This document shows positions 9,680 to 54,519 of a stretch of 64,000 nt of DNA, one piece after another (position 1 is the stretch's first letter; each line of letters begins with the position of its first letter). The DNA is from Pseudanabaena sp. (GTDB taxonomy: Bacteria; Cyanobacteriota; Cyanobacteriia; Pseudanabaenales; Pseudanabaenaceae). The stretch lies in NCBI GenBank assembly GCA_003249035.1, contig QBMK01000014.1, forward strand, positions 62,001-126,000, read 5' to 3'. Made by a program: the position numbers and the translations under genes. The notes below the pieces were generated by a model. That model was not told the origin of the DNA, did not search any database, and was given only the letters and a program-made list of their open reading frames with translations.

Positions 9680-10034
9680 GCTTTGCTAACTCCCTAAATA
9701 CTAAATACTTTTATGTTTAAAAATTATGTGTGAGTAGTATAACAGTTAGCGATCGCATATTTGTTAAAAACCATAATTGTTAAGCTCAGCACTCAACCAT
9801 TGACTTAGCTCTTCGCAACGATCTCAAAATTTTGATGCTGATCAACAAAAAATTTGTGGTTGGATTTACCATGACATGTCGTAATCAAACAAGAAAAGGC
9901 TTGCCAAAAAGCACTTATAGCCAAAAAATAAGAAACCGCCTTTGCTGCTCATAAGCTCAGGCGGAATGTGGTGTGAGGAGTGAACGGAAACTTTCGTCTC
10001 CGCTTACATATATATTGTAGTCTAATCCGCAAGT
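9680..10034. other. 355-bp divergent intergenic region
   Basis: This gap separates leftward trxA from the rightward AmpG-like gene and must hold both promoters. I could not assign -35/-10 boxes with confidence. A weak hairpin (CCGCCT at 9936-9941 with AGGCGG at 9959-9964) lies upstream of the permease gene. No RNA gene or believable small reading frame was found. Confidence 0.4.
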
Positions 10035-44694: not shown

Positions 44695-47600
44695 CTAAGC
44701 CTTTAAAATCACACATAATCCTTGCTCTACAGACACCATCTGCCCCTCTTTACAGAGGATTTCAGTTACCTTACCTGTCACATTAGCAACTATTGTCATT
44801 TCCATTTTCATGGATTCTAAAACGATTAGACGATCGCCTGCTTTGACCTCACTACCAACTTGCACTACAATTTGCCAGACATTGGCGGGAATATGGGAAA
44901 TTACCAGTTCGCTATTGGGTGGAAGAATAAATTCATCGGAGTCAGGTATAGTATCGCGTAAGGTGTCTGCATCGATCAGGAGATTGTCGGCTACCCAGCG
45001 ATCGCGCTCTGCATCAAAGGATTGCTGTTGTTGAGCTTTAAAAATAGCCGCTTCATCGGCAATAGCCGCAAGAAAATCATTGTATTTCTTTAAACTAAAA
45101 GTTTCATATTCGATCCGTAGTTTAAATTTGCCATGGATAAAATCTTGTCGATGCTGTAGTAGCTCTGCTTCGGAGACAGGATAAAAACGAACCTGATCGA
45201 AGAAGCGTAACAGCCAAGGTTTTCCTGCCTCAAAATCAGGGGTTTGGCGATAGGTATTCCACATCTGTACCGTGCGACCAAAAAACTGATAGCCTCCAGG
45301 CCCTTCCATTCCATATACACACATATATGCGCCCCCAATTCCAACGGCATTTTCGGGAGTCCAAGTACGGGCAGGATTGTATTTGGTGGTGACAAGGCGA
45401 TGACGGGGATCGATAGGAGTCGCCACGGGAGCGCCTAAGTACACATCGCCTAAACCCAATACTAAGTAACTAGCATTAAAGATAATCTGCTTAACAGCTT
45501 CTACATCCGCTAAACCATTAATGCGCCGAATGAATTCAATATTACTGGGACACCAAGGCGCTTTGGGATTAACCGATCGCATATACTTCTCAATTGCCAA
45601 TTTGGTGGAGGCATCATCCCAAGATAGGGGCAGATAGACGATGCGCGTTGGCACTTCCATATCCGTAACAGGAGGCATCTCAGTTTCAGCGACAATCAAG
45701 ACCTCTAGCAATTGTTCTAGGGGCAAAATCTGGCTATCGTAATGTATTTGTAGCGATCGGATACCGGGGGTTAATTCTAAAATCCCAGCCAGAGGATTTT
45801 GGGCTAACCATTCCATTAGCGCATGAATCCGAAAACGAAGATTCAGATCGAGAACAAGTTCTCCATATTCAATGAGAATATTATCATCTCCCGAACGGCG
45901 ATACTTTACGGCAATTTCGTTGTCGGGTAATTCATGCAATATCGCTTCTCTACTCAAGGCGGCGATATTTAAGGTCGAATTGGGCGAGAGAGAGAATTCT
46001 GTAGATCTGCTTTCAGTATCAGCAGTGCTGAATTCTAAGGTCGCAACTTGAGAGTCTTGTTGAATTTTTTGCTGTAGAGCTTGCTCATGACTAATCCGCA
46101 CAAATCTGACCGTATTGCCTGGTTTGAGCTGACCAATCTTCCAGATCTCGGCAAGGGCAATGGTGGCAGGACAGACAAACCCGCCCAAGCTTGGTCCATC
46201 AACACCGAGAATGATGGGCATATCGCCGGTAAAATCGATCGCCCCCACCGCATAGGCATTGTCATGGATATTAGAAGGATGAAGCCCCGCTTCGCCGCCA
46301 TCGGTTCTCGCCCATTGTGGCTTTGCTCCAATTAATCTGATGCCAGTTCGAGCCGAGTTATAATGCACTTCCCAATCACTGGCAAAGAACATATCGATGT
46401 CATCATCGGTAAAGAAATCTGGTGCGCCATGAGGTCCATAAAGCACTCCTATTTCCCAATGTTGGGGATACTCAGGAATCAGGGCGGGGGGAAGACTCAA
46501 AAGTGTTGCAGCATCAATGGTTTGCTTGTCAGAAGGATTAAGCTTAAGCACATCGCCAATTCGTAAGATCCTTCCACAATGTCCACCAAATTTACCTAGG
46601 GTAAATGTTGATTTACTGCCGAGATAATCAGGTACGTCAAAACCATTTTGAACAGCTAAATACGATCGCAGCCCGTTGCCTGCGATCGCCTTCATTTGTA
46701 AAATGCTACCTTTATTTACCTGTATCGCTGTCCAATAGGCAATTGGATCACTATCCAATTCCGCTTGCATGGTCGCCCCTGTCAAACAAATTATCGTATC
46801 AACATTAAAACGGAGGGTCGCTCCATTAACTGTAAATTCCAGCGCCGCCGCAGATTCTGGATTGCCGACCAAACGATTGGCATATCTTAGGGCTAAGGTG
46901 TCCATTGCTCCCGAAGGTGGCACGCCAATATTCCAGTAGCCTATGCGCCCAGGGTAGTCCTGAATAGTGCTAAAAGTACCTGCTTCTAAGACATCTATGG
47001 TTCGCGGTGTATAGCTAAAATAATTCAAAAATTTGGTATGGATATGCCCCGATGTAAATTCAGGTGCTTGGAGGATTTGGGAAAGATAATCTAAGTTGGT
47101 TTCAATACCTGCAATTTGGGTATTACCTAAAGCCGATTGTAATTTGGCGATCGCATCGGTTCTTGTCTCCCCGTAGACGATCAATTTTGCTAACAAAGGA
47201 TCGTAATAGGGCATGATCTCTGTGCCAGTCTCAATCCAGCGATCGCAACGAATATCTTCTGGCAACCTGACCTCAGTTAAAACTCCCGAACTGGGCTGAA
47301 AGTTCTTAGTGGGATCTTCAGCATAAATTCTGACTTGGATAGAATGACCTTGAGGAGAATGCTCATAGGCATCAAAAAAACTAGTATCACCCGCCGCTAG
47401 ACGGATCATCCATTCCACTAAGTCAATCCCCGTAACCGTCTCTGTAACTCCATGCTCAACTTGGAGTCGCGTATTTACCTCTAAAAAATAAAATTCTTGG
47501 CGATCGCTATCAAACACAAATTCTACAGTCCCCGCTGACTGATAATTAACCGAGGCAACCAGTTTGAATGCTGCCTCGTAAAGTTGTTGACGCAAAGCCT

Positions 47601-48342
47601 CAGAAATATTAGGCGCAGGAGTCTCTTCAATCACTTTTTGATTGCGACGTTGCACTGAACAATCGCGATCGCCTAAGGTCAACACTCGTCCATTTCCATC
47701 GCCAAAAATTTGCACTTCGATATGTCGTGCCGACTCCACATAGCGTTCTAAATAAATACCACTTTGTTTGAAGTTATTTTGACTCAATCGCTGAACTGTC
47801 GCAAACAAATCTGGTAACTGAGCTTGGCTGCGACATAGCTGCAAGCCAATACCACCACCACCCGCCGTACTTTTGAGCATCACAGGATAACGGATCTTGT
47901 CAGCTTCCCTTAAAGCCTCCTCCACATCTGTCAATAGTCCAGTTCCTGGCAGTAATGGCACTTGGTTCTGAGCCGCTAATTCTCTAGCTGTATGCTTTAG
48001 TCCAAAGCTACGCATTTGGCTTGGCGTAGGCGCAATAAAAATAATTCCTTGACTGGCACAAGCTTCCGCAAATTCGGCATTTTCGCTCAAAAATCCATAG
48101 CCGGGATGAATTGCTTCTGCCCCTGTTTGTTTTGCTGCTTCTAAAATTCTTTCCCAACGTAAATAGCTCTCGGCAGCCAAGGCTCCTCCAATTTCGATCG
48201 CCTCGCTTGCCATGGACACATGCAGAGCATAGGCATCCGCTTGAGAATAAACGGCAACAGATTTAATACCCATGCGATCGCAGGTGCGAATGATCCGACA
48301 AGCAATTTCCCCACGGTTCGCAATTAGAATTTTAGAGAACAT
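44695..48342 (-). CDS. uca: Biotin-dependent guanidine/urea carboxylase
   Basis: A 1215-residue single-chain carboxylase. Domains: biotin carboxylase (1-445, with ANRGEIACRIIRT, STAGGGGIG, EVNTRLQVEHGVTE); carboxyltransferase halves (about 450-1080: LEAGTFSTIQDYPGRIGYW, ARTDGGEAGLHPSNIHDNAYA, YGMEGPGGYQFFGRT); and a biotinyl domain with Lys1179 in ESMKME. This is the urea amidolyase carboxylase architecture without the allophanate hydrolase domain. Homologues under guanidine-I riboswitches with DUF1989 partners prefer guanidine over urea (established for this family). The upstream riboswitch therefore argues for guanidine carboxylase, giving carboxyguanidine at the cost of ATP. It is the third gene of the leftward operon. 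Confidence 0.92.
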   Translation of the reverse strand: MFSKILIANRGEIACRIIRTCDRMGIKSVAVYSQADAYALHVSMASEAIEIGGALAAESYLRWERILEAAKQTGAEAIHPGYGFLSENAEFAEACASQGIIFIAPTPSQMRSFGLKHTARELAAQNQVPLLPGTGLLTDVEEALREADKIRYPVMLKSTAGGGGIGLQLCRSQAQLPDLFATVQRLSQNNFKQSGIYLERYVESARHIEVQIFGDGNGRVLTLGDRDCSVQRRNQKVIEETPAPNISEALRQQLYEAAFKLVASVNYQSAGTVEFVFDSDRQEFYFLEVNTRLQVEHGVTETVTGIDLVEWMIRLAAGDTSFFDAYEHSPQGHSIQVRIYAEDPTKNFQPSSGVLTEVRLPEDIRCDRWIETGTEIMPYYDPLLAKLIVYGETRTDAIAKLQSALGNTQIAGIETNLDYLSQILQAPEFTSGHIHTKFLNYFSYTPRTIDVLEAGTFSTIQDYPGRIGYWNIGVPPSGAMDTLALRYANRLVGNPESAAALEFTVNGATLRFNVDTIICLTGATMQAELDSDPIAYWTAIQVNKGSILQMKAIAGNGLRSYLAVQNGFDVPDYLGSKSTFTLGKFGGHCGRILRIGDVLKLNPSDKQTIDAATLLSLPPALIPEYPQHWEIGVLYGPHGAPDFFTDDDIDMFFASDWEVHYNSARTGIRLIGAKPQWARTDGGEAGLHPSNIHDNAYAVGAIDFTGDMPIILGVDGPSLGGFVCPATIALAEIWKIGQLKPGNTVRFVRISHEQALQQKIQQDSQVATLEFSTADTESRSTEFSLSPNSTLNIAALSREAILHELPDNEIAVKYRRSGDDNILIEYGELVLDLNLRFRIHALMEWLAQNPLAGILELTPGIRSLQIHYDSQILPLEQLLEVLIVAETEMPPVTDMEVPTRIVYLPLSWDDASTKLAIEKYMRSVNPKAPWCPSNIEFIRRINGLADVEAVKQIIFNASYLVLGLGDVYLGAPVATPIDPRHRLVTTKYNPARTWTPENAVGIGGAYMCVYGMEGPGGYQFFGRTVQMWNTYRQTPDFEAGKPWLLRFFDQVRFYPVSEAELLQHRQDFIHGKFKLRIEYETFSLKKYNDFLAAIADEAAIFKAQQQQSFDAERDRWVADNLLIDADTLRDTIPDSDEFILPPNSELVISHIPANVWQIVVQVGSEVKAGDRLIVLESMKMEMTIVANVTGKVTEILCKEGQMVSVEQGLCVILKA

Positions 48343-48430: not shown

Positions 48431-49168
<738 letters not shown>

Positions 49169-49263
49169 AAGCCTTGCCTAGTAACGGTTTCAGGGGATTT
49201 TGGCGTTCTATTTTTGATTTTTTGTCCTGTACTTAGGTTGTGGTTAATAAAGGCGAAATTAAA

Positions 49264-49998
49264 CTAGTGGGCTAAAATCGATAATTCTTCAAAATAGGCA
49301 TCCGTATTTTGAAATCCCCTGATCGCCTCTGGGCAACTTGTACGACAGAGATCGTCGCTTGTGGGGGCAGGAGATTTCCAAACAGTGACTTGAATGGGTT
49401 GAGGATCGTACACAGGATTAGTATCGAGGACGTGTGGAGTATTAGAGATCACTGCCAATACGTTCATCTCAGCACGCAAATCAATAAAATCTCCAGCTTG
49501 AGCGACCTGCTCGGCCCAAACCAGATTTCCGTTCCCATCCACCGCAACATGACCAAACCAGTTCACATTAGGCATGATGTCGCGTTTACCCATATTCCGT
49601 TTTGCCAATGCTAATAGAAAATTATCCCGCGCACTGCGATAGAAACTATCTTCTCCATATTTAGCCGAATTAGTTGCTGCATTACTACATCCAGCTAGGG
49701 TGTCATGACTTCCGCAAGTATCTTCTGTAATCGAAAATAAGACCCGCCCCATGTCGGTATATAGCAATTTACCTTTTGTGAGGAATGCATTAAATTGAAT
49801 TTTAGCGGTGTCGGCTGCATTGTAACGCTCAATCACGTTATCTGCGTTGTAGCAAAGAAAGGATAAGCCCCTAGAACCTTCAGGTGCAGAGATCCGAAGT
49901 GTTGTTCCCTTCTTAATCAGGCGTGACCAATAGGTTCCACCAGGAATAGCTTCATCCCAAATTATTAATGCTGGATCGAGGTTAGATTTTGTAAGCAT
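49264..49998 (-). CDS. DUF1989 protein, carboxyguanidine deiminase subunit (CgdA/CgdB-like)
   Basis: A 244-residue paralogue of the next gene. It carries SRLIKKGTTLRISAPEGSRG, the metal-site segment DTCGSHDTLAGCSNAATN (about 87-104) and IMPNVNWFGHVAVD. A clear ribosome-binding site AAGGAG lies 7 bases before the ATG. As the first gene after the leftward guanidine-I riboswitch it would be expressed when guanidine accumulates. With its partner it should form the heteromeric deiminase acting after the carboxylase. The 95-bp gap between the two DUF1989 genes holds no clear element. Confidence 0.87.
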   Translation of the reverse strand: MLTKSNLDPALIIWDEAIPGGTYWSRLIKKGTTLRISAPEGSRGLSFLCYNADNVIERYNAADTAKIQFNAFLTKGKLLYTDMGRVLFSITEDTCGSHDTLAGCSNAATNSAKYGEDSFYRSARDNFLLALAKRNMGKRDIMPNVNWFGHVAVDGNGNLVWAEQVAQAGDFIDLRAEMNVLAVISNTPHVLDTNPVYDPQPIQVTVWKSPAPTSDDLCRTSCPEAIRGFQNTDAYFEELSILAH

Positions 49999-50045
49999 GA
50001 TTAACTCCTTAAAGAAATAACTATGAAGAGCATACCTACAATAGC

Positions 50046-50256
50046 GAAAGCCCAGGAAGCCCTGAACAGTAACTCGCCATTGAGTTTGCTGTCATTTGAC
50101 TCTCCCGGGCTTTTATCCCTCCGTGTGGCCAATTCCTAATCGAATTAAGATTATTTCTAATTAATCGATTAAAAATGGTTGCTTCTCTTGGACCAGTCAC
50201 CACACTCAACGCAATTTTTGAAAGCTGAAATTGAATGCGATCGGAACCCTAGAAGC
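50046..50256 (-). promoter_or_regulatory. Guanidine-I (ykkC class) riboswitch controlling the carboxylase operon
   Basis: Read leftwards, the RNA has the 5' conserved CTAGGGTTCCG (50242-50252), then CTGGTCCAAGAGAAGCAA (near 50178-50195) and the diagnostic ACACGGAGGGATAAAAGCCC (50107-50126) followed by GGGAGA. The 3' aptamer strand AAAGCCCGGGA can instead pair with TCCTGGGCTTT at 50047-50057, giving an alternative 11-bp stem that may be the expression platform. No strong U-run follows that stem, so control may act on translation or be an imperfect terminator. It leads into the two DUF1989 genes and the carboxylase. Confidence 0.9.
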
Positions 50257-50490
50257 GAATATTTTTAAATCAGTATGCATTTGATTCTACATTAATACTC
50301 TCAAAACAGCACCACAAATTATATTAAAAATTAGTTTTTCCACAATTATCATGTTCGATAATATCCTGCTTTTGTATATTCAAGCACAAATACTTTGTGG
50401 TCTACTTGATAGCTTGTTTTGAAAGAAAGGTTTTCGATTACAAATATTTTTTTTAGAAATAGCGGTATTACCAATTTCACAGAAAATTTA
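50257..50490. promoter_or_regulatory. Divergent promoter region between the two riboswitches
   Basis: About 230 bp of AT-rich DNA separates the 5' ends of the two guanidine-I riboswitches, so both promoters must lie here. I could not define -10/-35 boxes or an operator with certainty. A 63-codon frame on the minus strand crosses it and is not a convincing gene. Confidence 0.55.
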
Positions 50491-50492
50491 AT

Positions 50493-50674
50493 TGCTTCTA
50501 GGGTTCCGATTTGGTAAGGGTAATGATTACTTATTTCCAAACTAAGTGCTGGTCCAAGAGAAGCAGGTCAACTACCTTTATTATTAATTTAATGGGTTTA
50601 GTTGGTTACACGGAGGGATAAAAGCCCGGGAGGAACTTCAGTATTACCATCTGAAAGTTTCTTCCGGGCTTTTC
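50493..50674 (+). promoter_or_regulatory. Guanidine-I (ykkC class) riboswitch with terminator, controlling the ABC importer
   Basis: The conserved CTAGGGTTCCG (50498-50508), CTGGTCCAAGAGAAGCAGG (near 50549-50567) and ACACGGAGGGATAAAAGCCC (50608-50627) are all present. AAAAGCCCGGGAGGAA (50620-50635) can pair with TTCTTCCGGGCTTTT (50659-50673), a terminator stem followed by the T-rich CCATTTTATT. That stem uses the 3' aptamer strand, the usual layout of a transcription-terminating ON switch. It leads into the ABC transporter operon at 50709. Confidence 0.93.
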
Positions 50675-50708
50675 CATTTTATTAACTTTTGCATACCAAT
50701 TCTCTAAA

Positions 50709-51776
50709 ATGACTGTCATGAAATTGCGATCGCTTCTATCCTCTCTTCTCATATTTTCCATCGTTTTAACTCTCGCTATTAGTTGCACAAATCCTGCTAG
50801 CAATATGCAAACTACTGTTAGCACCCCAACGAGTGACTCACATAATAAAGCGCCAGCAGATTCATTGCGCTTAGGATTTAGCGCTTGGCCGGGATGGTTT
50901 CCTTGGCAAGTTGCACAAGACGAAGGCAAGTTCACGAAGAATAATCTCACCGTTGACTTAAAATGGTTTGATGGTTATTTAGAATCGATAAGTACTTTAA
51001 TTGCAGGGCAAATCGATGCCAACAGTCAAACATTAGGAGATACAGTTAGCTCTGTTGCTGGGGGAGCCGATCAGGTGATTGTTCTGGTAAATGACAATTC
51101 AACTGGTAACGACAAAATTATTGTTAGTGCAGAGATTAACTCGATCGCCGATCTTAAGGGTAAAAAAGTCGCAGCCGAAGAAGGTACAGTCGATCATTTT
51201 CTACTGCTATTAGGGATGAAAAAAGCTGGTCTATCACCGCAAGACATCCAATTTGTCCCTCTCGAAACTGGTAAAGCTGCTACTGCCTTCGTCGGTGGAC
51301 AGGTAGATGCTGTAGCCGTATTTGCCCCATTTACGACCCAAGCGTTAAAACGAGCTGGAAGTAAAGAACTATTCAGTTCTAAGGATTTTCCAGGGGCTAT
51401 TTCCGATCACTTGGTATTCACTCGCAAATTTGTTGATGCTAATCCTGAAAAAGTTCAAGCCGCAGTAGATTCATGGTTTGCGACGCTTGACTACATTAAG
51501 GCAAATCCAGCTAAAGCCAATGAAATTATGGCAAAACGTGCGGGCGTAAGTTTGGATGAGTACGCACAGTACGCTGATGGTACTAAAATCTTTACGGTTG
51601 AAGAAAATCTCAAAGCTTTTGAAGTGGGCGAAGATATGAACTCTTTACCATTCGCAGCAAAAGAAATGAGTAAATTCTTAAATGAGGTTGGGTTGGCTAA
51701 GACCTCTCCTGACACCAGCAAGATGTTTGACGATCGCTTTGTCAAGGCCTATGCCAAAAAAGTGAAAACCCTCTAA
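50709..51776 (+). CDS. ABC transporter substrate-binding lipoprotein (guanidine-type, NitT/TauT family)
   Basis: A 355-residue exported protein. The signal peptide ends in a lipobox (LTLAISC, Cys near 27). The mature part is a NMT1/SsuA-like domain: LRLGFSAWPGWFPWQVAQDEG, the YLESISTLIAGQIDA segment, and LKGKKVAAEEGTVDHFLL. The ligand cannot be read from sequence, but the riboswitch directly upstream and the guanidine catabolic operon on the other side point to guanidine or a guanidinium compound. It starts the rightward operon binding protein-permease-ATPase. Confidence 0.9.
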   Translation: MTVMKLRSLLSSLLIFSIVLTLAISCTNPASNMQTTVSTPTSDSHNKAPADSLRLGFSAWPGWFPWQVAQDEGKFTKNNLTVDLKWFDGYLESISTLIAGQIDANSQTLGDTVSSVAGGADQVIVLVNDNSTGNDKIIVSAEINSIADLKGKKVAAEEGTVDHFLLLLGMKKAGLSPQDIQFVPLETGKAATAFVGGQVDAVAVFAPFTTQALKRAGSKELFSSKDFPGAISDHLVFTRKFVDANPEKVQAAVDSWFATLDYIKANPAKANEIMAKRAGVSLDEYAQYADGTKIFTVEENLKAFEVGEDMNSLPFAAKEMSKFLNEVGLAKTSPDTSKMFDDRFVKAYAKKVKTL

Positions 51777-51781
51777 ACACG

Positions 51782-52627
51782 ATGAATGAACCACCCAAAT
51801 CAATTCGTGAATTTATCAGGCCGAGAAAGGTTAACTCCAGTGTGTTTTGGCAAATTGCGGAAGAATTGCCCCCTAGACTAAACACAGTCCTGATCGTCAC
51901 TTCGATAGCTCTACCATTCTCACTATGGTGGGCTATCACAACATTTGGAAATATTGATACGAAGTTTTTGCCATCACCTGCACAAGTAGCTACTGCATTT
52001 ATAAGATTGTGGAGTACTGGCGAAATTCAAAAAGATACACTCGCAAGTCTATGGCGAGTAAGTGTAGGGGCTTTACTGGTGGGTTTGTTCTCAATTCCTA
52101 TTGGAGTCTTAATGGGAAGTTTTGCTAGCATTCGTGCCTTATTGGAGCCTCTGTTTGGCTTGATTCGCTATATGCCTGCACCAGCTTTTATTCCTTTATT
52201 AATTCTTTATTTAGGCATTGGAGAAGAGCCGAAAATCACTCTAATTTTTATCGGGGTATTCTTTTTCAATTCCTTAATGGTGATGGATACCGTCAAGTTT
52301 GTCCCTAAGGAGTTAATTGAATCTACCTATATTCTGGGCGGTACACGTAGATCGGCATTGCTTCAAGTTATATTTCCCCATGTACTGCCTGGAATCCTTG
52401 ATGCTTGCCGCATTAACTTAGCGGCTGCTTGGCAGTTAGTAATTGTCTCAGAGTTAATTGCCGCTACGGAAGGTTTAGGTAGACGCATCAGTGTTGCGGG
52501 GAGATTTCTAAAAACCGACGAGATTTTTGTAGGATTGATTGTAATTGGTGTGATTGGTCTATCCTTCGATCTTTTTTTCCAAGCAATGATTCGGTTTTCT
52601 TGTAAGTGGGCAAGTCAAAAAATGTAA
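51782..52627 (+). CDS. ABC transporter permease (guanidine-type)
   Basis: A 281-residue permease of the NitT/TauT class with about six membrane helices and the EAA loop ESTYILGGTRRSALLQVIFPHVLPG (about residues 180-205). It starts 6 bases after the binding-protein stop. Upstream of the first helix the cytoplasmic N-terminus is about 35 residues long (RPRKVNSSVFWQIAEELPPR). It would form the homodimeric channel of the importer. Confidence 0.92.
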   Translation: MNEPPKSIREFIRPRKVNSSVFWQIAEELPPRLNTVLIVTSIALPFSLWWAITTFGNIDTKFLPSPAQVATAFIRLWSTGEIQKDTLASLWRVSVGALLVGLFSIPIGVLMGSFASIRALLEPLFGLIRYMPAPAFIPLLILYLGIGEEPKITLIFIGVFFFNSLMVMDTVKFVPKELIESTYILGGTRRSALLQVIFPHVLPGILDACRINLAAAWQLVIVSELIAATEGLGRRISVAGRFLKTDEIFVGLIVIGVIGLSFDLFFQAMIRFSCKWASQKM

Positions 52628-52664
52628 TTGTGCTGCGGGCGTTTCGCGCCCACAACACAATTAC
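52624..52664. repeat. Palindrome inside the ABC operon
   Basis: Imperfect 19-bp arms (52624-52642 / 52646-52664) with a TTC loop lie between the permease stop and the ATPase gene. Some arm positions mismatch, so it is partly decayed. A leaky terminator here could lower ATPase expression. Confidence 0.62.
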
Positions 52665-52688
52665 TAAATTTTTTATTAGGAGCAAATT

Positions 52689-53456
52689 ATGTATATACAA
52701 ATCAAGAATCTCCATAAGAGCTTTCCTACCAAAAATGGACAGCTTGTTGTCTTAAAGGATATTAATATCAATATTTCTCAAGGTGAATATATTTGTGCTG
52801 TTGGAGCTTCAGGATCTGGCAAATCTACGTTATTAAGGCAGATAGCTGGGCTCGATCGCCCTACCTCTGGCGAGGTAATTGTTGACGGTCAGTTAATTAA
52901 CGCTCCAGGACACGATCGCGGCATGATCTTTCAAAACTACACCCTTTATCCTTGGATGAGCGTTTTAGAAAATGCTGAATTTGGGCTTAAGTTGTTGGGT
53001 GTCCCGAAAAAGCTCCGTAAAGAACGCGCCAGTTACTATTTAGATGTTGTTGGTTTGTCCCAGTTTAGTAAAGCTTTGCCCAAGCAATTATCGGGGGGGA
53101 TGAAACAACGGGTTGCGATCGCTCGGGCTCTAGCCTCTGAGCCAAAAGTTCTACTTATGGATGAACCTTTCTCAGCGTTGGACGTTCACACCAAAGAAAC
53201 CATGCATGAATTTATGATTGATCTTTGGCAGCGAACCAATATCACTATTTTTATGATTACTCACGATGTAGAGGAGTCAGTGTTTTTAGCGAACCGCATC
53301 TACGCTCTCGGTTCGAGACCAGGCACTGTCAGAAAGGAAATCACCATCAACCTTCCCGATCGCAGTGCTTCCGTTAAAAGGCACAAGATATTTCATGATT
53401 ATCGTGACGAACTGATGGAATTATTGCGCCAACATGGGAAAGAAGTTTCCCAATAA
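52689..53456 (+). CDS. ABC transporter ATP-binding protein (guanidine-type)
   Basis: A 255-residue ATPase with Walker A GASGSGKST (about 38-46), Q-loop FQNYTLYPW, signature LSGGMKQR (about 136-143), Walker B VLLMDEPFSALD and switch His in MITHDVEES. It is of the NitT/TauT/SsuB type that pairs with the upstream permease. A ribosome-binding site AGGAG precedes the ATG. It is the last gene of the riboswitch-controlled import operon. Confidence 0.94.
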   Translation: MYIQIKNLHKSFPTKNGQLVVLKDININISQGEYICAVGASGSGKSTLLRQIAGLDRPTSGEVIVDGQLINAPGHDRGMIFQNYTLYPWMSVLENAEFGLKLLGVPKKLRKERASYYLDVVGLSQFSKALPKQLSGGMKQRVAIARALASEPKVLLMDEPFSALDVHTKETMHEFMIDLWQRTNITIFMITHDVEESVFLANRIYALGSRPGTVRKEITINLPDRSASVKRHKIFHDYRDELMELLRQHGKEVSQ

Positions 53457-53533: not shown

Positions 53534-53592
53534 ATCTGCACTCAAATCATTTCGGCAAGCACTATAGACGATATTGCCGATATATCTCACTA
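53532..53592 (+). pseudogene. Uma2 3'-end remnant overlapping the HDAC-like gene
   Basis: The bases encode KSALKSFRQAL and a stop, nearly the same as the KSALKAFRQGL end of the intact Uma2 gene at 44048-44656. Similarity continues for about 25 bases past the stop. On the opposite strand the same bases encode the C-terminus of the HDAC-like protein. The rest of the Uma2 gene is missing; element B copy 2 stands where its body would begin. Confidence 0.7.
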
Positions 53593-54479
53593 GCGGCACG
53601 ATGCAAGAGGGAATGTCGATAAACTAGCGATCGCATGTCTTCGCAATAACCACCACCGATCACACAGGCGACGGGGAAGCGCTGAGCAGCACAGGTACTC
53701 AAAACCTGCATATCGCGCCGAAATATACCCGTATCAGTGAGAGCGAGTTTGCCAAGGCGATCGCCTATATGCGGATCTACTCCTGCATCGTAAAGCACTA
53801 AGTCGGGCTGAAATTCAGTTAATATATCTGGCAAATAAGCAGCAAGAGTGCGTAAATATTCATCATCTTCCATTCCTTCGCGCAGAGGTACATCCCGATC
53901 GCTGATTTGTTTAATCGATGGAAAATTAATCTGGCAATGCATAGAGAAAGTAAATACATTTGGCTCGTCCTGAAAAATGAGAGCCGTGCCATCGCCTTGA
54001 TGCACATCCAGATCGACGATCATGATTTTTTTAACCAATCCTTCTTTTAGTAATACTCGCGAAGCGATCGCAAGATCATTAAATATACAAAATCCTGAGC
54101 CATAGCTAGGAAAAGCATGATGAGTTCCTCCCGCTGTATTGCAAGCTAAGCCATGAGCTAAGGCTAGCCGCGCTGTTAATAATGTGCCGCCCACGGCGAT
54201 TCTGGTGCGATAGGCAAGCTCTGGACTCCAAGGTAATCCGATACGGCGCTGAGCTTTCGGATCGAGATTTCCTATCCAATATGTATCCACATATTCGCGA
54301 TCGTGCACCAAGGCGATCGCATCTAAATCTGGCAACTCTGGTGTAAAAAACTGCTCTGATCGCGCTACCCCATCGGCTATCAGCATCTCATAAAGCAAGC
54401 GAAACTTTTCCATCGGGAACCGATTGGTATTTGCGATCGGTGCGACATAATTGGGATGATAGATCAGTGGCAAATCCAT
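53562..54479 (-). CDS. Histone deacetylase-superfamily amidohydrolase
   Basis: A 305-residue protein from the ATG at 54477-54479 (MDLPLIYHPNY); an upstream in-frame start would add nine residues that run into a hairpin. Active-site segments are GGTHHAFPSYGSGFCIFND (tandem His), MIVDLDVHQGDGTA (zinc Asp and His) and LVLYDAGVDPHIGDRLG (second zinc Asp, followed by the family's Asp). Bacterial members deacetylate acetylpolyamines or other amides; the substrate here is unknown. The last codons overlap the Uma2 remnant on the other strand. Confidence 0.9.
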   Translation of the reverse strand: MDLPLIYHPNYVAPIANTNRFPMEKFRLLYEMLIADGVARSEQFFTPELPDLDAIALVHDREYVDTYWIGNLDPKAQRRIGLPWSPELAYRTRIAVGGTLLTARLALAHGLACNTAGGTHHAFPSYGSGFCIFNDLAIASRVLLKEGLVKKIMIVDLDVHQGDGTALIFQDEPNVFTFSMHCQINFPSIKQISDRDVPLREGMEDDEYLRTLAAYLPDILTEFQPDLVLYDAGVDPHIGDRLGKLALTDTGIFRRDMQVLSTCAAQRFPVACVIGGGYCEDMRSLVYRHSLLHRAASEIYRQYRL

Positions 54480-54492
54480 AGTTCTCACCAAA

Positions 54493-54519
54493 AAAGAACC
54501 GTGCAATGCACGGTTCTTT
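54493..54519. terminator. Hairpin between the zeta-carotene desaturase and HDAC-like genes
   Basis: AAAGAACCGTGC (54493-54504) pairs with GCACGGTTCTTT (54508-54519) around AAT with GC clamps. On the minus strand it follows the desaturase... HDAC order as a hairpin just upstream of the HDAC-like ATG and 3 bases beyond the desaturase stop, with A/T tracts on both sides. Confidence 0.65.

Follow-up and report, generated by a model that had tools for sequence, protein, structure and literature searches.

A 64,000-nucleotide stretch of a Pseudanabaena sp. genome (assembly GCA_003249035.1, contig QBMK01000014.1, positions 62,001 to 126,000), referred to here as the window, carries a six-gene cassette controlled by two divergent guanidine-I riboswitches. 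One riboswitch precedes the genes for a carboxyguanidine deiminase and a guanidine carboxylase, and the other precedes a complete ATP-binding cassette (ABC) importer. The cassette very probably imports, carboxylates and deiminates guanidine for nitrogen acquisition, as judged from its genes and leaders. No allophanate hydrolase (AH) was found in the genome, and, given guanidine import, carboxylation and deimination, we favor with some reserve an exit of the pathway through urea and urease.

The leaders were examined with cmscan against Rfam 15, for which the gathering score of the guanidine-I family (RF00442) is 63 bits. Two aptamers score above it, both are full length (model positions 1-107 of 107), and they are the only two matches in the whole assembly (hereafter G000; 4.55 Mb, 60 contigs, 95.5% complete). 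They lie in divergent orientation, with the following features in their leaders:

50487-50634, plus strand: guanidine-I aptamer of the importer leader (RF00442, 75.6 bits)
50621-50672, plus strand: terminator hairpin overlapping the 3' end of the importer aptamer, arms AAAGCCCGGGAGGA / TTCTTCCGGGCTTT (14-bp helix, -32.3 kcal/mol)
50263-50100, minus strand: guanidine-I aptamer of the carboxylase leader (RF00442, 66.0 bits)
50047-50113, minus strand: terminator-like hairpin overlapping the 3' end of the carboxylase aptamer (12-bp outer helix, -35.6 kcal/mol)
50264-50486, no strand assigned: intergenic region between the aptamers (223 bp), presumably with divergent promoters

A first-pass annotation, made from the letters of the window, had read both leaders as guanidine-I riboswitches with their 5' ends facing each other about 230 bp apart; the covariance search confirms the assignment, with 75.6 and 66.0 bits against the required 63, and the measured distance is 223 bp. 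Each leader also contains an expression platform able to compete with its aptamer, in the form of a 12-14 bp helix. The importer-leader hairpin is followed by a U-rich tail, with comparable hairpins in the leaders of relatives, and the carboxylase-leader hairpin is kept in Pseudanabaena relatives. Across cyanobacteria, a helix score of at least 24 with the aptamer 3' end was reached in 46 of 64 guanidine-I leaders, a count that includes close relatives and so does not represent independent events, compared with at most 2 when the downstream DNA was shuffled by mononucleotide in 100 rounds. Guanidine-I riboswitches let transcription proceed only in the presence of guanidine (PMC11410670), and the aptamer-competing hairpins fit this behavior. 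In the absence of guanidine, the aptamer 3' end (AAAGCCCGGGAG) would be drawn into the terminator hairpin and transcription would stop, while bound guanidine would stabilize P3, block the hairpin and allow the genes to be transcribed. We infer both this direction of switching and ligand binding from the sequence of the two leaders. A promoter consensus scan of the intergenic region gave results no better than shuffles. The same region contains an AT-rich block with GTATATTCAAGCACAAATA that is conserved in four Pseudanabaena.

The genes downstream of the two riboswitches are arranged as follows:

49264-49998, minus strand: cgdA (UAAP1, DUF1989), carboxyguanidine deiminase subunit (TIGR03425, 304.9 bits, cut-off 206)
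48431-49066, minus strand: cgdB (UAAP2, DUF1989), carboxyguanidine deiminase subunit (TIGR03424, 341.5 bits, cut-off 285)
44695-48342, minus strand: guanidine carboxylase, annotated in the urea carboxylase family (TIGR02712, 1869 bits)
50709-51776, plus strand: substrate-binding lipoprotein (SBP), SsuA family (TIGR01728, 226 bits, cut-off 163.5)
51782-52627, plus strand: importer permease, NitT/TauT type (PF00528; best NCBIfam match TauC, below cut-off)
52689-53456, plus strand: importer ATPase, NitT/TauT type (PF00005; SaoA/TauB/NrtCD-like, below cut-offs)

This gene order agrees with the first-pass annotation, in which one switch led into two DUF1989 genes and a carboxylase, here cgdA, cgdB and the TIGR02712 protein on the minus strand, and the other into a complete NitT/TauT-type importer, here the SBP, permease and ATPase on the plus strand. 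The carboxylase gene itself lies outside 49264-53456, the interval to which that annotation had been assigned. UAAP1 and UAAP2 occur as a pair, both above their curated cut-offs, as expected for CgdAB. The start of cgdB was reset to an ATG from the DNA and from relatives; the TTG at 49168 chosen by the open reading frame (ORF) caller falls inside an inserted element. All of the carboxylase domains are present (biotin carboxylase, carboxyltransferase and biotinyl).

Guanidine carboxylases are defined by an Asp at K. lactis position 1330 and an Asp at position 1584 (PMC11410670). When the window carboxylase is aligned to the K. lactis enzyme, N1330 is opposite D703 and D1584 is opposite D966 (position 1584 counted by hand in the alignment), and so both signature residues are present. 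The proposal that the carboxylase acts on guanidine is therefore backed by the published guanidine signature, D703/D966, and not by the one for urea carboxylases. Asp is found at 703 in all CgdAB-linked cyanobacterial carboxylases examined except that of P. biceps O153 (G009; L082 4176-7823, minus strand, also L187), where an N703 carboxylase sits in an otherwise intact cassette. N703 is also found in the carboxylase of G373 (L173 3728-9333), at a locus with neither CgdAB nor a riboswitch and in a genome that lacks urease. The G373 locus also holds a split AH, and it likely represents a true urea carboxylase, or urea amidolyase, route.

For the importer, guanidine-I control is combined with an SsuA-family SBP, a permease and an ATPase. 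Relatives of the SBP that are 46-74% identical sit behind guanidine-I switches in the guanidinase operons of other cyanobacteria, and in a phylogenetic tree the carboxylase-linked and guanidinase-linked SBPs are mixed within one supported clade. Across 41 sequences, 95 SBP positions are at least 95% conserved, including an NDNSxGNDK stretch. In Synechocystis, the guanidinase operon includes sll1080-1082, named as SsuA_fam, TM_PBP2 and ABC_NrtD_SsuB, and this SsuA-family importer is raised in guanidine-producing strains (PMC8390497). Because the importer family is common to cyanobacterial guanidinase operons, guanidine is well supported by association as the cargo, and the SBP is predicted to bind guanidinium. 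A search of PDB for a guanidine-binding SBP returned no close relative with a solved structure, the matches being remote proteins for sulfonate, nitrate and taurine. Together, the signature residues, the CgdAB scores and the membership of the importer in the guanidinase-operon family support the uptake-to-allophanate pathway that had been suggested earlier, ligand binding and transport specificity being the predicted parts.

The named relatives nearest to the cassette belong to Pseudanabaena and include P. biceps PCC 7429, P. frigida and Pseudanabaena sp. UWO311. At the family level, RF00442 matches were found in 10 of 38 genomes, nine of which have two. G005, G006, G007, G009, G011 and G022 share the divergent layout, as does the more distant G452; it is broken by contig ends in G008 and decayed in G027, and in other genomes the importer and carboxylase units are co-directional or separate. 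Given that the divergent arrangement is seen again in related genomes, it is not due to chance. In a phylum-wide sample of 386 genomes, a guanidine-I switch is present in 121 and CgdA scores above cut-off in 9. All six cassette genes are under strong purifying selection, with dN/dS of 0.02-0.14 between G000 and AH-less relatives in the genus; values for cgdA against genus relatives are 0.05-0.085. The G027 locus (L085 8473-9206 and 9812-9959) has a frameshifted cgdA, lacks the importer genes and retains an orphan riboswitch on the plus strand that scores below cut-off; from its sequence it is a decaying cassette.

The first-pass annotation had pointed to AH as the gap in the pathway, and the genome search bears this out, as AH was found neither in G000 nor in near-complete relatives. 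With the AH model TIGR02713 (cut-off 511 bits), the top match in the 95.5% complete G000 is GatA at 217 bits, so that the complete pathway, which includes AH, was not found in this assembly. Likewise, AH was not found in five Pseudanabaena relatives that carry the cassette or in three cassette genomes farther away, the eight being G005, G008, G009, G011, G022, G027, G166 and G452. Of the 386 genomes in the phylum sample, 8 have AH above cut-off, and seven of these also have CgdA (Fisher p ~1e-12, uncorrected for relatedness). Since AH and CgdA nearly always co-occur elsewhere in cyanobacteria, the AH-less cassette genomes are a departure from the rule, and the purifying selection between G000 and its AH-less relatives indicates that these genomes use the cassette even though they lack AH. 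We considered a split AH gene hidden in G000 and rejected it, as the candidates in the genome were limited to GatA, a second amidase and stand-alone relatives of the AH C-terminal domain (AH_C). An ORF of 563-580 amino acids downstream of the carboxylase in relatives was likewise rejected as AH, being CTP synthase or HerA-like. AH is divided between an amidase ORF and an AH_C ORF in many of the AH-bearing cyanobacteria examined (L090 6189-8002; L093-L096, L099, L173), and it is fused in G136, G371, G427, G436 and G443.

With AH not found, decarboxylation to urea is the most likely fate of the allophanate. In the pathway that we propose, the importer unit would bring guanidine into the cell, the carboxylase would convert guanidine, HCO3- and ATP to carboxyguanidine, and CgdAB would convert carboxyguanidine to allophanate and NH3. 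Without AH, allophanate would then yield CO2 and urea, either spontaneously or aided by an enzyme, and the urease of the genome would free the last two ammonia molecules from urea. Allophanate has been described as losing CO2 spontaneously to form urea (PMC3944691). Urease alpha is present in all eight AH-less genomes searched for it (G000, G005, G008, G009, G011, G022, G027 and G166), while G122, G277 and G373 have AH and lack urease.

Several points weigh against this interpretation, of which the urea exit is the weakest link. The presence of urease is weak evidence for that exit because the gene is common in cyanobacteria, ureABC being found in 85% of 308 genomes (PMC6737895). Spontaneous decarboxylation of allophanate may be too slow, and sequence alone neither constrains the fate of allophanate nor separates a role in nitrogen supply from detoxification. 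In addition, the G000 assembly is in 60 contigs and 95.5% complete, and the U-tract of the carboxylase-leader hairpin is weak (TTTCGCTATT).

The conventional route, in which an unrecognized AH yields ammonia directly without urease, is an unlikely alternative to the urea exit. G000 encodes a second amidase-signature protein of unassigned substrate (C10:811-1983), and GatA-like, non-orthologous AH candidates have been proposed in ammonia-oxidizing archaea (PMC12625717). However, this amidase scores better with other amidase models than with that of AH, and in G009 and G027, where the cassette is present, GatA alone among the amidase-signature proteins matches the AH model, so that the candidate amidase is not common to the clade. 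As one particular form of the urea exit, a stand-alone AH_C protein (PF21986, about 125 amino acids) could act on allophanate, most simply as a decarboxylase that forms urea. G000 encodes such a protein of 125 amino acids (C4:35205-35582), and in the AH-less G452, where the carboxylase reads as two ORFs, just 3 bp separate the carboxylase stop from the start of a homologue inside the riboswitch operon. Where full TIGR02713 match lists were available for cassette genomes, stand-alone AH_C is present in 9 of 9 that lack AH (G000, G005, G008, G009, G011, G022, G027, G166 and G452) and in 0 of 6 that have it (G006, G007, G427, G436, G443 and G444). These counts leave out seven AH-bearing genomes of the phylum sample that were searched at a strict cut-off, as well as G429 (88% complete), which has a true AH C-domain ORF without the amidase. 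By lineage, the exclusion amounts to about 4 versus 3 cases, and the idea itself arose during the analysis, after the pattern had been seen. The stand-alone proteins form one clade apart from true AH C-domains (support 95/91, with the bootstrap not fully settled), and in the AH-less G166 the gene adjoins that of a biuret hydrolase, an enzyme that likewise forms allophanate. Yet the two G166 genes are convergent and hence in separate operons, stand-alone AH_C is also encoded by Pseudanabaena genomes in which the cassette is absent (G012, G014, G019, G029 and G032), and its neighbors in Pusillibacter show no link to allophanate. Furthermore, a T replaces the GAHL histidine of AH C-domains, a residue that we take to be catalytic in K. 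lactis. We therefore regard stand-alone AH_C only tentatively as a candidate allophanate decarboxylase, or other allophanate-converting enzyme, that could replace AH in some cyanobacteria; if it does, guanidine nitrogen would be sent through urea and urease.

Two further readings concern the purpose of the cassette as a whole. It could mainly detoxify guanidine from in or around the cell, with any gain of nitrogen incidental, and it is true that exporters and detoxification are often under guanidine-I control (PMC12186494) and that Synechocystis is shielded from guanidine by its guanidinase (PMC8390497). We consider this improbable: under the second switch lies an ABC importer with its binding protein, which would be hard to explain if detoxification were the sole purpose. 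The older annotation, with urea as the substrate of the carboxylase and the cargo of the importer, agrees with the curated models, which call the enzyme urea carboxylase, with a putative urea binding-protein model that matches the SBP below cut-off, and with the Asn at the discriminating position in G009. Against it stand D703/D966 in the window carboxylase, the linkage to CgdAB, guanidine-I control and a urease that would make a urea carboxylase redundant, and we judge it very improbable.

Some observations lie to the side of the guanidine pathway. In G166 (L219 105-7378) the surroundings of stand-alone AH_C include, besides the biuret hydrolase (413.8 bits, cut-off 370), another related hydrolase as well as a BMP-type ABC transporter, which raises the possibility of a biuret/triuret route in a cyanobacterium. 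A second AH_C-like protein in G000 (C33; L006 1009-1887) adjoins a putative hydroxyisourate hydrolase, which suggests a link to urate breakdown. The inserted element between cgdA and cgdB, which resembles a miniature inverted-repeat transposable element (MITE), is bordered by a short direct repeat (AACCACAAC) and is absent in G011 and G022. Adjoining the importer is a gene for a histone-deacetylase-like protein, the position of which is kept in G022, and a Yfr1 small RNA is encoded elsewhere in the window:

49107-49236, no strand assigned: MITE-like insert (18-nt terminal inverted repeats, 94% complementary)
53562-54506, minus strand: histone-deacetylase-like protein
9934-10003, minus strand: Yfr1 small RNA (45 bits, cut-off 38)

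The guanidine-I cassette is a further case of a pathway type that has been described, set apart by its AH-less ending. As here, guanidine-I control, carboxylase, CgdA/CgdB and an ABC importer with SBP are found in Pseudomonas syringae, Raoultella, Klebsiella and Vreelandella (PMC11410670, PMC12186494, PMC12508155). In contrast to those carboxylase-pathway bacteria, AH was not found in the Pseudanabaena genome, and whereas Raoultella, Klebsiella and Vreelandella combine a class I and a class II switch, Pseudanabaena has two guanidine-I switches on divergent transcripts. The sll1077-sll1082 operon of Synechocystis sp. PCC 6803 (PMC8390497) shares the guanidine-I switch and the SsuA-family importer and ends in urea and urease, but has a guanidinase and Ni chaperones where Pseudanabaena has the carboxylase and CgdAB. 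A search of G000 with a cyanobacterial GdmH-type query found no guanidinase, and the GdmH pathway is thus not represented there. The same carboxylase and two associated proteins also occur in the cyanobacterial uc/ucp1/ucp2 clusters, including that of Pseudanabaena biceps PCC 7429, in a survey in which only nine of 19 uc genomes had both uc and ah (PMC6737895). Those clusters were read as urea catabolism, whereas the signature residue, riboswitches and CgdAB described here point to guanidine.

Pseudanabaena clusters annotated as urea catabolism are more likely to serve the uptake and breakdown of guanidine; the genus includes a culture-collection strain, P. biceps PCC 7429. One importer family and one riboswitch class would serve two unrelated degradation routes in cyanobacteria, and because the family is common to both routes, the importer can be tested as a guanidine transporter. 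Finally, judging from the lineages without AH, urea and urease may be one way for the carboxylase route to end, and the same lineages single out the small AH_C protein.

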